A DNA stretch of 38,459 nucleotides from assembly GCA_017432665.1 (NCBI GenBank), contig JAFRIS010000009.1, positions 1 through 38,459 of the forward strand, written 5' to 3'. The number at the start of each line of letters is the position of its first letter. Positions within the stretch are counted from its first letter, which is position 1. Source of the stretch: Bacilli bacterium (GTDB taxonomy: Bacteria > Bacillota_I > Bacilli_A > RF39 > UBA660). Below the pieces are notes generated by a model. The model did no database searches and was not told where the DNA came from. It saw only the letters and a list, made by a program, of their open reading frames with translations. A program made the position numbers and the translations under genes. Positions 15,701 through 38,309 of the stretch are shown in pieces.

Positions 15701-15732
15701 AAAAAGGCAATTTCTAGCAAATTGCTTTTTTT
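15701..15732 (+). terminator. Terminator after the 194-residue gene
   Basis: Stem GCAATTT/AAATTGC with CTAGC loop, flanked by A-run and T-run. The -10 TATAAT of the next gene follows at 15737-15742. Confidence 0.8.
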
Positions 15733-15763
15733 ATGTTATAATTTATTATAGAGGGTGATGTAT

Positions 15764-18700
15764 ATGCCAAGAATTAATATTAACGAGTATTTATACATTG
15801 ATTATGAATTAGAATCAGATAATAGTGTTGAAAATATTGAGCAATACAGTATTCCAAGAAAAGAAAGTATTAAATTACATAATATCCCTAATGGGATTAT
15901 GTTTTATGATGAAAAAGAAGGCATTATACGTTTAAAAAGTGGAATAAATTGGGTAGAGATACTTAAGTTTGATAAAGATACAGGTGAGTTCAAGTGGTTA
16001 ATTAATCCATTAGATTTTATAACGACATTAGAAGTGACTAATGAATACTTAGATAATGGTACTAATGCTAACTATGCTAGAAATACTGAAATATTTGATG
16101 AGCAAAGGAAAAGAAAAAGAGGAATTCTTCCAAGCATAGATACTGAAAGAGAACTTCACACTCATTTTATTCAAGTTTTGAGTGCTGAACAATTATTAGA
16201 TTTTTTGGAATCTCAAGGTGTAAAATCAATTTTTTGTATTAAAGGACCAGCAAAAGCTATAGCAATTATTCCAGAAGATGATTATATAAAATTAACGGTT
16301 GCTCAAATAGAGAAAAAATATAATTGTAAAGCAATTAGTATTGAAGAAGCGAAAAAAGAACCAAAAATTCTTGATCAATTATCCGCACCAATTGATACTA
16401 ATACTGATTTTGAGTATTTTGAAAGTTGTTTTCCAATGCGTTCTGCACTAATATCGTTAGCTTGTTGTAGCGCTAAAGATAATAGTCAACAAGAAGGCAT
16501 TGATGAAATAAGAACATTAAATGAAGAAATTGAAGCAATAGAAAAGACGATTAAAAGTTTAGAAGAAGATTATAATAAAGAATATGTTGGTTTAATCAGG
16601 ATAAAAGAAATACGTGAACAGATTGAAAATGAAGACAGTCGTAAAAAGGCATTAGAAAAACTAAATGATGAGATTAAAGAATTAGAAAATCGTGATTTAG
16701 AAGCTATTAAAAAGGAATTAGAAAGTAATCTTGCAAGAAAAAAGAAATTAGTTCAAGAAAAAAGAGAAGTTGTATTGATAGAGACTTATAAAGACTTATT
16801 TGCTAAAAGTTTGGAAGTCTTAAGAGATTATGGTGTCAAATATGTTGAATTCAGTTATTCAAATATAGAACGAATAAAGAAAATGATTGAAGGATTTCCT
16901 GGTGTTGAAGGTATTGATTTTAAGTTCTTAATAAGTCAACATCGTAAGGATAGTGAAGGTAGTGCTCTAATAGGAGCATGTAAGGTTTTATCAGAAATGC
17001 TTAGTGATGATAAGCATAAAGATAAAATAGCCGGTTTTGATTTGATGGGAATGGAAGATAGAATTAGAGATCCCGAAGATTTTATAGATAGCGGTAAAAA
17101 GTGTAATACTTTACGCACAAAATTAGAATATGCTATTACAGGAATGTTAGAAGGTTCAATAGATTCAGAAAAGAAACCAGTATTACGTCTACATGCCGGT
17201 GAAATATATTATGAAGAAGGCAATCCTAATTTAACTTTAGAGATTCTTAAACAAATAGAAGATGCGATAAGGAATGAATATGCAGAAATATATTCTATAC
17301 TTAACGATTATAAAAATAACGGTATAGAGGATATAGAAGCATTGTATAGAAACCATAAAAAATATGAATTTTTGGTGAACAAAAGTAATATTGATAGTTT
17401 AAAGAGATGGATAAAACAGAAGAAAAAACTAAATAGTGCAAAAAATCCCGAGAGTAAAAAAGTTCAAAAGATAGCTAAAGAATTAAGTCAAATTGAAAAA
17501 CAACTTGAAGATATTCTTGGTACTGATATCATGTCTAAACTTAACAACACTATTATTTCAAAATTTGAGAGTGGTGATATTTCTGAAGATGATATTGTCG
17601 ATGCAATTATTACTGAAGAATTAAAAGTTTTAGAGAAAGATTCCATAAAATATAGAATTATTACTGAAGTTGAAAGACAAAGTCTTTCTGAAGAGGAGTT
17701 AGAAGTAGAAATAGAAATACTAAAAGATTTAAAAGATAATTTTTGCTTAAAAGATAGATTAGAAATAAGAGTTGGACATGGACTTCATTTTAAAGAAACT
17801 AAAGAATACTATGAAATGTTAAGACATTTTGGAGTTATAGTTGAACTATGTACAAGTTCAAATACTAAATTGGGTAATATGAAAACGCTAGATGAAATAC
17901 CTTATGATAAATATGTTGTAGAAGGGATACCTGTTGTTGTAGGAACTGATGGAGAAGGATATTTTAGAGATTCTATGAAACAAGAAGCAAGTTTAATTTC
18001 TGCTATTTCTGAAGGTAAAACAGATACTATGACTGATTCAAATGATCCTGATAATGGTCCGAAAAAGCCAAGCAAAATGGATAAGTATTTAGGTCATTTT
18101 CTTAGTGGATGGACGATTCATTCTAAATTAAGTAAAACTGCAAAAGGACTTAATATGGATGTGACAGTTGAAGAATATATGTCTTCAGTTAATAATAGTA
18201 ATGCTCTATTTATGGAAGGTTATGATAATGCTGATGGCAAAAAGAAGTATGTCAATAATTACTTTAAGAATCTTTACATTATTAACGGAGATAGAAATTC
18301 AAAAGAGATTGAAAGGTTAAAAGTTGAAATTGGAAAAGCATTTAACTTTATTATGGATATGCAATCAAACGAACTTTATTTTAGTAATTCTGAATTGCAA
18401 TTAGTTAAAAAGAATCTTGATAAAATTGAAGAATATTTTAAAGAAGAAAAATATGTTAAAGCAGCTATACTTTTAGTATCATTGCAAGCAGTGATGGGAT
18501 ATCAAACAGATTTGGTGGAAGTATTATATTTAATGAAAGAAAATAATTTAAGTTTTTCTCAATGCTTAAAGACAAAAGTAATTAACAAATATAAATTTGA
18601 TGAAATGGATCGTATCAATAACGATAATGTTAAAAATAATAATTTAAGACCACGATCATATATAAATATTCATGGTGATCACTATATGCAGTATGCATTT

Positions 18701-19132
18701 ATAAAGAAATACTATAATGAAAAATCTTATTTAAGAAAATTAACTATCGAATATAAAAAATTGTTGGCTGCCATAGAAGAAAGTCCTAAAAAGGATGACT
18801 ATAAAGTTATGTTGGTTGTTGATGATATTTGTAATCTTATGCATAGACTTTATAATTGTGAAAATGATCAAAAATATTACTTTGATAATAAAAATATTAT
18901 AAGGGCTACTTTCCTAATTATAGGTTTAGGAAAGAGTTTAGGAATTGATGTTGACTTACCTGAAAATATTATTAATAATAAAAGCCATGATATGAATGAT
19001 TATGTGGCTGATAGTAATAATGATATTATTAATGATGCTGAATCGATTGATAAAAAAGATTCTGAATCAGATGACTATTTAAAAGACAAATACGACTTAT
19101 ATTCAAAAGAAACTAAAAAAAGGAAGTATTAA
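15764..19132 (+). CDS. Giant adenosine-deaminase-like amidohydrolase
   Basis: A 1122-residue protein, about three times a normal adenosine deaminase. Scattered through it are the ADA motifs: ELHTHF (metal ligands His132, His134), LRLHAGE (His477 and the catalytic Glu480), VGHGLHF (His672), VELCTSSNTKLG (from Glu694), and GTDGEGYF (metal ligand Asp729; the second Asp of the usual TDD is Gly). About 340 residues, including a coiled coil near 240-340, separate the first two motifs. An N-terminal beta-rich part and a C-terminal helical part of about 370 residues are unassigned. Probably a cytosolic purine (or base) deaminase with added regulatory or assembly domains. ATG 15764 follows GAGGGTG. 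The next gene begins 3 bp later. Confidence 0.82.
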   Translation: MPRININEYLYIDYELESDNSVENIEQYSIPRKESIKLHNIPNGIMFYDEKEGIIRLKSGINWVEILKFDKDTGEFKWLINPLDFITTLEVTNEYLDNGTNANYARNTEIFDEQRKRKRGILPSIDTERELHTHFIQVLSAEQLLDFLESQGVKSIFCIKGPAKAIAIIPEDDYIKLTVAQIEKKYNCKAISIEEAKKEPKILDQLSAPIDTNTDFEYFESCFPMRSALISLACCSAKDNSQQEGIDEIRTLNEEIEAIEKTIKSLEEDYNKEYVGLIRIKEIREQIENEDSRKKALEKLNDEIKELENRDLEAIKKELESNLARKKKLVQEKREVVLIETYKDLFAKSLEVLRDYGVKYVEFSYSNIERIKKMIEGFPGVEGIDFKFLISQHRKDSEGSALIGACKVLSEMLSDDKHKDKIAGFDLMGMEDRIRDPEDFIDSGKKCNTLRTKLEYAITGMLEGSIDSEKKPVLRLHAGEIYYEEGNPNLTLEILKQIEDAIRNEYAEIYSILNDYKNNGIEDIEALYRNHKKYEFLVNKSNIDSLKRWIKQKKKLNSAKNPESKKVQKIAKELSQIEKQLEDILGTDIMSKLNNTIISKFESGDISEDDIVDAIITEELKVLEKDSIKYRIITEVERQSLSEEELEVEIEILKDLKDNFCLKDRLEIRVGHGLHFKETKEYYEMLRHFGVIVELCTSSNTKLGNMKTLDEIPYDKYVVEGIPVVVGTDGEGYFRDSMKQEASLISAISEGKTDTMTDSNDPDNGPKKPSKMDKYLGHFLSGWTIHSKLSKTAKGLNMDVTVEEYMSSVNNSNALFMEGYDNADGKKKYVNNYFKNLYIINGDRNSKEIERLKVEIGKAFNFIMDMQSNELYFSNSELQLVKKNLDKIEEYFKEEKYVKAAILLVSLQAVMGYQTDLVEVLYLMKENNLSFSQCLKTKVINKYKFDEMDRINNDNVKNNNLRPRSYINIHGDHYMQYAFIKKYYNEKSYLRKLTIEYKKLLAAIEESPKKDDYKVMLVVDDICNLMHRLYNCENDQKYYFDNKNIIRATFLIIGLGKSLGIDVDLPENIINNKSHDMNDYVADSNNDIINDAESIDKKDSESDDYLKDKYDLYSKETKKRKY

Positions 19133-19135
19133 AAT

Positions 19136-19519
19136 ATGATAGAATTGATTGAAGAAATAGAAAAACATAAAAGTAAGAATAATTCTAATGTTTGTGAAGA
19201 ACTTATAGAAAGAATAAAGGATTATAATATAAAATCTAAAGAGGAATTATTAACTCATGAAAACAGTTACTTTTATGAAAATGATTTAGATAAGAAAATT
19301 GATCAAAAATATAAGTCATATGTTCTTGATTATACTAGACTGGATAATGCTACTAATAGTGATATTATCAAATTAAAAGAATATGAAGCAAATATGAAAA
19401 AAGCTACTAATAATTTAGAAAAATGTAAGTATTTAATATTAATTTATGATTATGTGGGTTATGAATTAGCTTTTCCATATGAAGCATATTTACTAATTGT
19501 TAGTGATAATTTGAATTAG
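19136..19519 (+). CDS. Small helical partner of the ADA-like gene, unknown
   Basis: A 127-residue, charged, helical protein with no membrane segment or recognised domain. It starts 3 bp after the ADA-like stop with AAAAGGAAG upstream, so the two form one operon and may act together. It could be an accessory or assembly subunit, but there is no direct evidence. Confidence 0.75.
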   Translation: MIELIEEIEKHKSKNNSNVCEELIERIKDYNIKSKEELLTHENSYFYENDLDKKIDQKYKSYVLDYTRLDNATNSDIIKLKEYEANMKKATNNLEKCKYLILIYDYVGYELAFPYEAYLLIVSDNLN

Positions 19520-19550: not shown

Positions 19551-19560
19551 GAATTTACAT

Positions 19561-19640
19561 CTTATAAAGAGTGATGGAGGGACTAGCCCTATGAAGTCAC
19601 ACCAACCTATTAAATTAGGTGGTAAAGCTAGATCTATAAG
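19561..19640 (+). promoter_or_regulatory. SAM-I (S-box) riboswitch aptamer
   Basis: P1 is CTTATA (19561-19566) with TATAAG (19635-19640). Between them are the S-box hallmarks: AAAGAGTGATGGAGGGA, GCCCTATGAA, CCAACC and GGTGGTAAA-GCTAGATC. Binds S-adenosylmethionine and reports on its level. Minor differences from consensus (ACACCAACC in place of GGCAACC) do not affect the fold. It governs the downstream metK-like operon. Confidence 0.9.
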
Positions 19641-19679
19641 ATAACTTTAAGAACGCAAGTTATCTTGGGTTCTTTTTTT
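19638..19679 (+). terminator. Riboswitch expression platform (antiterminator/terminator)
   Basis: AAGATAACTT (19638-19647) can pair with AAGTTATCTT (19657-19666); this shares bases with P1 and traps AAGAAC in its loop. With P1 closed by SAM, AAGAAC (19649-19654) pairs with GTTCTT (19669-19674) before seven T, ending transcription. An OFF switch. Confidence 0.75.
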
Positions 19680-19936: not shown

Positions 19937-20719
19937 ATGATAGAGAAAGTTAATCCAAGTCATCCTGACAAATTAGCTGATCGTATTGCAGGTGCAATAG
20001 TTGATTTGGCTTATAAAAAAAATAAAAACCCTAAAATAGCAGTAGAAGTATTATTAGGGCATGGTCATTGTCATATTATTATTGAGACAAGTGAGTCTTT
20101 TAAGAAAAAAGAAATTGAAAGTATTGTAGAACGCATTGTGGGAGATGTAGAAGTAGATTTATTGGTAGTTAAACAAGATAAATATTTAGCTAGTAACCAA
20201 AAAGATAAAATACGTTGTGGAGATAATGGTATTTTTAAAGGTGTACCATTAAAAGAATATGATAAAAAATTATCTGAAATAGCTAGAACTATTTATAAAA
20301 AATATCCACATGATGGTAAATATATTTTATCTAATGATAAGCTAATTATTTGCCAAAGTAATTCTCCTACAGACAAACTAAAAGAAATGTATCCAGAGGC
20401 TATTATTAATCCTTTAGGTGATTGGATAGGTGGTATTAATACTGATAGTGGAGCAACTAATAGAAAACTAGGTTCTGATATGGCTGAATCTGTTACTGGT
20501 GGTGGTCTTCATGGCAAGGATTTATCTAAAGCGGATGTCAGTATTAATATCTATGTTTTTAATAAGGCACAAGAAACAGGAAAAGAAGTAAAACTATACT
20601 GTGCTATTGGTGATGAATTCATAGATGGGAAACCATATAGTGAAATAGTTGATTATGCTAGAGACTATATTGATAAAATAGGTGGTTTTGAAAAACTAGC
20701 TGAATGGGGATTGTATTAA
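19937..20719 (+). CDS. Short-form S-adenosylmethionine synthetase
   Basis: MetK family enzyme making SAM from methionine and ATP, in the cytoplasm. Only 260 residues against about 395 for usual MetK. Signature residues are kept: SHPDKLADRI near the start (usual GHPDK), CGDNGIF (GDQG), INPLGDWIGG, TDSGATNRK (usual CGLTGRK with Arg and Lys), and TGGGLHGKDLSKAD (usual GGGAFSGKD..K.D). Loss is mostly in the linking regions and the central domain, including the GEITT segment. It sits under a SAM-I riboswitch, which strongly supports a role in SAM supply. ATG 19937 follows AAAGGAGA. The enzyme may need a different partner or assembly. Confidence 0.88.
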   Translation: MIEKVNPSHPDKLADRIAGAIVDLAYKKNKNPKIAVEVLLGHGHCHIIIETSESFKKKEIESIVERIVGDVEVDLLVVKQDKYLASNQKDKIRCGDNGIFKGVPLKEYDKKLSEIARTIYKKYPHDGKYILSNDKLIICQSNSPTDKLKEMYPEAIINPLGDWIGGINTDSGATNRKLGSDMAESVTGGGLHGKDLSKADVSINIYVFNKAQETGKEVKLYCAIGDEFIDGKPYSEIVDYARDYIDKIGGFEKLAEWGLY

Positions 20720-37412: not shown

Positions 37413-37439
37413 GCATAATAAAATAAAGGTGGTGTGAAT

Positions 37440-38309
37440 ATGGGATTAAATATTTTTGTTAGTAATAGATGCTTTATATATTGTAAAGGTTGTTATAGTT
37501 ATTCTCGTGAAGAAAGATGTAATGCAGTATTATCAACTAAAGTTATAGAAAAGTTTTTGAAATATGCATATGATTACGGAATTAAAAAAGTTACTCTATG
37601 TGGGGGAGATCCACTAGCTAGAAATAATATTATTAACTTGTTAGAGAAAGTAAAAGATATCGGCTTTTCTATTTCAATAGATACTGTTGGAACTCCGTTA
37701 TTACGAGATGTAAGTATTGGAAAAAAAGTTATTGAGCAAGTAGATGCTCAAAAGATATCAAAATTAGTTAATTTCGTAGGGATACCTATCGATGGGTCGA
37801 GTAATGAAATTATAAGACTCTTTAGACCAACAAGAAGAGATATTTTAGGAGAACAAATAGCAATTTGTAATATTCTAAATGATAATAAAGTAAAAGTTTG
37901 TATCAATACAGTTGTTCATAAAGGAAATGTAAAAGATGCAAAAAAAATGGCAAAAATAATAAAAGAAATAGGAGCTTATAAATGGCAATTATTTCAATAT
38001 GCGCCACTTGGTAAATATGGATTTATAAATAAAGAAAAATTTGAAATCTCTGAAAAAGAATTTGATAAGTTTAAAGAAGATATATTGAAAGAATGCAGTG
38101 AATCAGAGATAAAAATTGAGTTTAAAAAGAATAGAGATAGAGTAAAGAATTATATATTGATTGATAATTCTGGAAATGCCTGGATTCCTGAATTTGAAAA
38201 GATAATTACAGCTGAGAATCCAGATTCAGGACGATTGATTATTGGGAATATAAAACATGAAGATGATTGGGAAAAGATATGCCAATATGTTAAAGGTCAG
38301 TCAAAATAG
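37440..38309 (+). CDS. Viperin-like radical SAM enzyme
   Basis: A 289-residue radical SAM protein with the cluster motif C11-FIY-C15-KG-C18 and the glycine motif CGGDPL. The C-terminal half matches viperins in order and spacing: VKVCINTVVHKGN (viperin KINSVIN), KWQLFQ (RWKVFQ), KFEISEKEFDKF (FxIxDEEFExF) and a late YILID (SYLILD). Viperins make 3'-deoxy-3',4'-didehydro nucleotides that block nucleic-acid synthesis. Basic positions of the nucleotide-binding segment are changed (CIN for KIN, KWQ for RWK), so another substrate is possible. ATG 37440 follows AAAGGTGG. It lies between the HAD-HIT fusion and asnS. Confidence 0.82.
   Translation: MGLNIFVSNRCFIYCKGCYSYSREERCNAVLSTKVIEKFLKYAYDYGIKKVTLCGGDPLARNNIINLLEKVKDIGFSISIDTVGTPLLRDVSIGKKVIEQVDAQKISKLVNFVGIPIDGSSNEIIRLFRPTRRDILGEQIAICNILNDNKVKVCINTVVHKGNVKDAKKMAKIIKEIGAYKWQLFQYAPLGKYGFINKEKFEISEKEFDKFKEDILKECSESEIKIEFKKNRDRVKNYILIDNSGNAWIPEFEKIITAENPDSGRLIIGNIKHEDDWEKICQYVKGQSK

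Follow-up and report, generated by a model that had tools for sequence, protein, structure and literature searches.

We describe here a two-gene unit in a 38,459-nucleotide stretch of DNA from a Bacilli bacterium (GenBank assembly GCA_017432665.1, contig JAFRIS010000009.1, positions 1 to 38,459; the whole stretch is called the window below), which encodes a much enlarged protein of the adenosine deaminase (ADA) fold followed by a small helical partner. The match to the ADA fold, the retained metal ligands, the loss of two substrate-gripping residues, the placement in a clade of its own, the conserved partner and the two-gene arrangement are all well supported. These features point to a nucleotide-deaminating pair that is so far undescribed, and not to an ordinary salvage enzyme. 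Our tentative reading is that the large protein may be a metal-dependent deaminase of a phosphorylated adenine nucleotide, which the helical partner would regulate. The parts of the pair are listed below in window positions; motif residue numbers in the text are those of the frame of 1125 amino acids (aa).

15764 to 19132, + strand: deaminase of ADA fold and TDG type, 1122 aa (1125 aa from GTG 15755), from the Pfam match, motif order and fold match
16157 to 16165, + strand: HTH, first two metal ligands, with Ile at the Asp19 position (2 residues after the second His), from motif comparison and alignment
16469 to 16828, + strand: insertion 1, predicted long helices between barrel strands 1 and 2 (residues about 239-358), from AlphaFold2 secondary structure
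17192 to 17203, + strand: HAGE, metal His and catalytic Glu, from motif order and alignment
17222 to 17740, + strand: insertion 2, predicted helical, from HAGE to GHG (residues about 490-662), from spacing and AlphaFold2
17768 to 17782, + strand: RVGHG, catalytic His, from motif order and alignment
17945 to 17953, + strand: TDG, metal Asp followed by Gly (Asp or Asn in canonical ADAs), from motif order and alignment
18029 to 19129, + strand: C-terminal region, predicted helical, at mostly low model confidence, from AlphaFold2
19136 to 19519, + strand: conserved helical partner, 127 aa, 3 bases after the deaminase, from reciprocal profiles and AlphaFold2

An earlier note on this DNA, made from the letters alone, had described an ADA-like protein of 1122 aa with its motif blocks in order. 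This is borne out by the open reading frame (ORF), by the order of the motifs (HTH 135, HAGE 480, RVGHG 672, TDG 731) and by matches to Pfam A_deaminase (PF00962; expectation value, E=4e-12, above the curated cut-off) and to NCBIfam TIGR01430 (E=4e-11; its 42.5 bits do not reach the curated cut-off of 216.55 bits). The CARF-ADA profile of PADLOC also matches (E=1.9e-9), and no curated family of this size in Pfam, NCBIfam or PADLOC claims the protein, which was one of the checks the earlier note had suggested. The frame is open from GTG 15755 to 19132 (1125 aa); the ATG at 15764 is favoured as start by a Shine-Dalgarno-like GAGGGTGAT and by the agreement of the relatives' start regions. The stretch from HxH to HAGE spans 345 residues as against 171-189 in the compared canonical ADAs, and that from HAGE to GHG 195 residues as against 23-24; since both are enlarged, the barrel carries two insertions and not one. 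The long insertion of the earlier note stands, and inside it AlphaFold2 predicts long helices at residues 243-358; the second insertion, of about 170 residues, is not mentioned there. Insertion 1 is missing in a relative of 383 aa, and insertion 2 is common to the window deaminase and locus L003 and is found in no other relative. The GHG to TDG spacing of 56 residues is that of most canonical ADAs, and about 365 residues follow the barrel, in line with the C-terminal region of about 370 noted earlier.

AlphaFold2 was run on a 14-row alignment of the deaminase. The model has a mean predicted local distance difference test (pLDDT) value of 61.9, with the core blocks mostly at 70-93; values below 50 prevail at the N terminus and over the final 365 residues. 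In a second-look structural alignment the top match was human ADAL (Z 21.3 over 284 residues at 3.8 A, model residues 83-758), followed by Plasmodium ADA (Z 19.4) and the deaminase of type III CRISPR systems, Cad1 (Z 18.8). ADAL is a deaminase that works at the level of adenosine monophosphate (AMP), on N6-methyl-AMP. Foldseek gave a weaker result (best E 2.7e-5), with RdrB at rank 33 (E=0.19); RdrB is not among the 50 second-look matches listed. In the model the predicted barrel is recovered from the first through the last strand. As the predicted core superposes on the ADA barrel, the motif blocks would belong to one barrel, and all of them lie within the superposed span; this structural check, suggested in the earlier note, thus did not refute it.

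Canonical ADA grips adenosine through Asp19, which holds the ribose, and Asp296, which holds the base. In the alignment used for our tree the metal ligands and the catalytic Glu are kept in all 29 rows, hence in 14 of 14 TDG proteins. All 12 canonical rows have Asp19, which is absent from the 14 TDG rows and from the 3 relatives of RdrB, and Gly follows the metal Asp (position 296) in 14 of 14 TDG rows and in 0 of the 15 others. The window deaminase has Ile at the first position and Gly at the second, and the residue signature of canonical ADA (Asp19 with Asp or Asn296) is absent from it. A wider canonical set was taken from the class (54 loci, of which 34 were kept, 9 dropped as duplicates and 11 left without an ORF that met the criterion). 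Here Asp19 occurs in 33 of 34, and position 296 is Asn in 29, Asp in 5 and Gly in none. The earlier note was thus right that Gly stands in place of the second Asp of TDD, but this Asp is not invariant; the loss of Asp19 is as telling as that of Asp296. It may be noted that one ADA-like protein (L006) combines TDD with Ile at the Asp19 position. A barrel that is catalytically altered or dead, and that serves as a scaffold or a sensor whose output is the partner, would also explain the loss of both gripping residues, and one member of the set (L103) has HAAE in place of HAGE. Yet the ligands and the Glu are kept in 14 of 14 proteins across deep divergence, which argues for selection on catalysis and makes such a barrel improbable.

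Relatives were sought in widening circles. The window protein, searched in 99 related genomes, found G001 (993 aa, L003), G008 (976 aa, L005/L013) and a remnant in G015. When a profile was run on the family (291 genomes), G649 (383 aa, L082), G498 (434 aa, L083) and G577 (722 aa) joined the list, these three and the window genome (G000) being the only ones of that search with the deaminase; a further run on the order (385 genomes) brought in G026 (762 aa) and G709 (796 aa). PF00962 matched in 51 of 395 genomes of the class; among these, six carry proteins with TDG or SDG (812-846 aa) and three carry RdrB-like proteins. In some genomes of the class, TGA is read through in the ADA genes. The resulting set holds 14 proteins from 14 genomes, of 383 to 1125 aa, in which TDG or SDG replaces TDD or TDN. 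Window-type proteins form a size series (383, 434, 722 and 1122 aa), and because the relatives of 383 and 434 aa bear the same signature, the giant form is a local elaboration; the clade is not defined by size. The tree was built from 29 sequences and 295 columns (14 TDG/SDG proteins, 3 RdrB relatives and 12 canonical ADAs; 4 of 16 canonical rows, L006 among them, were dropped as the motif finder failed on them). It supports the TDG/SDG proteins at 100/99, the RdrB relatives at 100/98 and the canonical ADAs at 100/99. The proteins of 796-846 aa form one subgroup (100/100); bootstrap trees that unite the other seven TDG proteins, that of the window included, amount to just 14%. Deep placement is unsure, since long branches lead to L103, L013 and L054 (an RdrB relative). 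The separate deaminase family with a small partner that the earlier note had thought likely is upheld by the clade of its own, the lack of an RdrB match and the conservation of the partner; 'stand-alone' does not strictly apply, since the deaminase is adjoined by the partner and, in two genomes, by a further gene as well. We found no account of the TDG/SDG clade in the open-access literature, subscription papers being outside the scope, and no full relative in plasmids, phages or viral contigs, where the short matches were stretches of ADAs of ordinary length. Outside the clade by its motifs is a 434-aa ADA-like protein of G120 (L055:8497-9801), which has HVGE and TDDP and is without Asp19. 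The sister subgroup of TDG/SDG deaminases of 796-846 aa comprises:

L015:8732-11203
L047:6835-9300
L048:7073-9511
L049:6326-8866
L050:7523-10027
L051:6023-8557
L102:819-3209

These share with the window type the TDG or SDG, the lost Asp19 and the clade, but differ in having no partner nearby and another C-terminal region. By eye that region looks Rossmann- or SLOG-like, with only a sub-threshold match to LSDAT (E about 0.07 for L102). The libraries searched hold no name for the subgroup, and we found no description of it. For the N-terminal regions, hhalign gives no support to homology between the two subgroups (E=0.09 over 15 columns). The C-terminal region of the window protein was also considered as a fusion with the genes that lie between deaminase and partner in L082 and L083; this looked plausible by eye and is unsupported, as not one of the 8 pairs compared scored above every one of its 300 shuffles (for the best pair, 21 of the 300 did at least as well) and the hhalign E was 0.82.

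The 127-aa partner proposed in the earlier note is confirmed as an ORF at 19136-19519 and is conserved across genera by reciprocal profiles. A profile of the window and L003 partners, searched in 823 ORFs, found L083 (2.3e-9), L013 (2.6e-4) and L082 (2.7e-4), and the reverse profile found the window (1.2e-8), L012 (2.2e-8) and L013 (1.5e-9); the L082 and L083 homologues had first been spotted by position and eye, and were then confirmed in this way. A survey of the neighbouring genes in other genomes, also suggested earlier, places the partner beside the deaminase in 5 of 7 window-type loci (the L013 copy is cut short near the contig end), in 0 of 7 loci of the sister subgroup and in 0 of 3 RdrB loci. 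In L082 and L083 an extra gene of 205 or 147 aa stands between the two. The AlphaFold2 model of the partner, from an alignment of four rows, predicts seven helices at pLDDT 83.5, with 2 of 5 models confident. No solved relative was found by Foldseek (best E 6.8), second-look alignment (Z 5.5) or sequence (E 0.18), a result from which no new fold follows. A partner-like domain was also seen, among 282 family genomes, in the C-terminal half of 261-aa proteins of G467 (6.9e-11) and, more weakly, G658 (8.5e-5). These proteins (L150:7048-7833 and L151:7086-7871) adjoin a 229-aa gene of unassigned family and a sigma-factor-like gene, and no deaminase is present among the ORFs of the two stretches.

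The deaminase and its partner form one two-gene unit, bounded by the following elements:

15707 to 15732, + strand: terminator-like hairpin and T run, low in G+C and lying upstream of the pair, read from the sequence and not among the sites of the consensus scan
19559 to 19642, + strand: S-adenosylmethionine (SAM; S-box) riboswitch RF00162 of the downstream MetK-like gene (Rfam, 67 bits), which lies outside the unit and marks where it ends

The flanks of the pair are syntenic in G001 and G015. In G001 the partner adjoins the deaminase with a 4-base overlap, and in G015 the pair has shrunk to a 67-aa ORF (L014:6125-6328) by two in-frame deletions, one of window positions 15886-19350 with CTAAT shared at the join and one of positions 19381-19476 between two copies of ATATGAAGCA (10-nucleotide direct repeats). 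This remnant may reflect an assembly error in the draft. Between G000 and G001 the deaminase, at 37.6%, is the least conserved of 16 ORFs compared, a few of which may not be genes; the partner stands at 69.3%. Such fast divergence is as expected of a conflict or regulatory gene. The compact order (3-base gap in the window, 4-base overlap in G001), the joint shrinking of both genes in G015 and the fast divergence of the deaminase would also fit a toxin-antitoxin-like pair, in which the deaminase poisons the nucleotide pool of its own cell and the helical protein silences it as antidote instead of activating it. We hold this to be unlikely: in G577 and G026 the deaminase stands without a partner next to it though an antidote would be required, no relative of the pair was found on a plasmid, phage or viral contig, and no toxin-antitoxin profile matches.

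Among the 37 window ORFs that reach 80 aa, 19 were included in the Pfam scans of the neighbours, together with one ORF of 74 aa; the scans found RecG, RelA, sensor kinases, a TMEM43-like protein, LysR and similar proteins. Housekeeping surroundings of this kind, the top structural match to ADAL and the resemblance of the short relatives to plain enzymes speak for a housekeeping or salvage enzyme that acts on an unusual nucleoside or nucleotide (for example an N6-modified AMP), with the insertions and the partner serving assembly. The patchy spread (four genomes in the family search), the remnant in G015 and the fast divergence speak against such an enzyme, which we consider rather unlikely. 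Two neighbours were tried as members of the system and ruled out. The MetK-like gene at 19937 has its own SAM riboswitch and occurs without the deaminase: of 39 genus genomes 13 have the protein, and in 9 of these 13 no deaminase of the present type turned up. LysR and a 194-aa gene are excluded because they are conserved as a separate pair in deaminase-free genomes. The riboswitch precedes a 74-aa ORF and the MetK-like gene, which is shortened to 260 aa and has a partial methionine adenosyltransferase match. Also, 18 kb away, a radical-SAM protein (37434-38309) matches the prokaryotic viperin profiles at E=4e-26, and may be a viperin or another radical-SAM enzyme.

The pair would thus be read as an ADA-fold metal-dependent deaminase with a helical companion. 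With the metal ligands and the catalytic Glu kept, the barrel should still be able to hydrolyse an amino group off a purine-like ring. With Asp19 and Asp296 both lost, the predicted substrate is other than adenosine; by analogy with Cad1 and RdrB it would most likely be a phosphorylated adenine nucleotide such as adenosine triphosphate (ATP) or deoxy-ATP. The available parts of the sources report that mouse ADA binds the ribose hydroxyls through Asp19 (PMC12669630), that TaqCad1, with Gly and Asn at the two positions, has no activity on adenosine and converts ATP to inosine triphosphate (ITP) (PMC12669630), and that Cad1 and RdrB both convert ATP to ITP (PMC11645235, PMC9994260). The partner would bind the deaminase and gate its activity, and the outcome may be that, in stress or infection, adenine nucleotides are turned into inosine nucleotides in a controlled way; the contact, the trigger and the physiological role we infer.

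Several points weigh against this reading. Most canonical ADAs of the class have Asn at 296, and so a change at that position tells little by itself. In TaqCad1, according to the available part of the report, restoring both residues did not rescue activity on adenosine (PMC12669630). The profile match is far stronger to ordinary ADA structures (4.6e-22) than to Cad1 (3.8e-4), and the superposition of ADAL is at least as good as that of Cad1, for which reason a monophosphate or a modified nucleotide is also conceivable as substrate. The partner is missing in 2 of 7 window-type loci, and the neighbourhood is a housekeeping one and not a defence island, which gives no support to a defence role. 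It is possible, if rather unlikely, that we are dealing with a third, independent immune or stress module that deaminates adenine nucleotides beside RADAR and Cad1, with the partner as sensor or gate and the sister subgroup doing the same job through a fused nucleotide-sensing domain. Should the predicted activity be borne out, regulated nucleotide deamination as weapon or brake would be broader than RADAR and Cad1, and at least one further enzyme family would have its own regulatory subunit. Two short versions with partners are small enough for direct expression and assay.

On comparing the window deaminase with known systems, RdrB of RADAR is alike in being an enlarged ADA with insertions that has lost Asp19 (3 of 3 relatives), and in the tree, across long branches, it groups with the TDG clade, with a branch separating the two from canonical ADA. 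A divergent RdrB is nevertheless highly improbable, and membership in RADAR is ruled out by profiles, positive controls, spacing and tree. The RdrB models of PADLOC give no match to the window deaminase at E up to 1, while they match the RdrB-like proteins of the same class in L052, L053 and L054 at 6e-32 to 1.5e-20. These relatives keep TDD as opposed to TDG and form a separate supported clade. Insertion 3 of RdrB follows the last catalytic His, as described in the available part of PMC9994260; the spacing from that His to the Asp is 213-214 residues in L052 and L053 as against 56 in the window deaminase, which has no insertion there. As the earlier note had stated, no RdrA-type ATPase was seen nearby, either in the Pfam scans (19 of 37 window ORFs of 80 aa or more and one of 74 aa) or beside the pair; in the genome-wide search the RdrA models matched no control, and that search carries no weight here. 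The RdrB-like genes (L052:1899-7834, L053:13-5362, L054:1068-5579) each have a large neighbouring gene, of 637-1047 aa; none of these neighbours was recognised as RdrA by the PADLOC models, though one has an AAA-type ATPase match. Cad1 (also CAAD, a deaminase fused to a CARF domain) is alike in the barrel and the CARF-ADA profile, and in the replacement of both Asp19 and Asp296 (PMC12669630, available part), with Asn at 296 in Cad1 and Gly in the window protein. It differs in that the window deaminase has a helical partner and insertions inside the barrel. No CARF match was found outside the ADA stretch by Pfam, NCBIfam or PADLOC, the N terminus being modelled at low confidence, and the Cas10 palm domain was found in 0 of 8 genomes, of which two are incomplete or contaminated and that of the window is 71% complete. 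Canonical ADA and ADAL (PF00962) share the fold, the metal ligands and the catalytic Glu, and the canonical ADAs differ in Asp19 (33 of 34), in Asp or Asn296 (34 of 34), in size and in having no partner. On our preferred reading the window deaminase would work like Cad1 and RdrB but belongs to neither.

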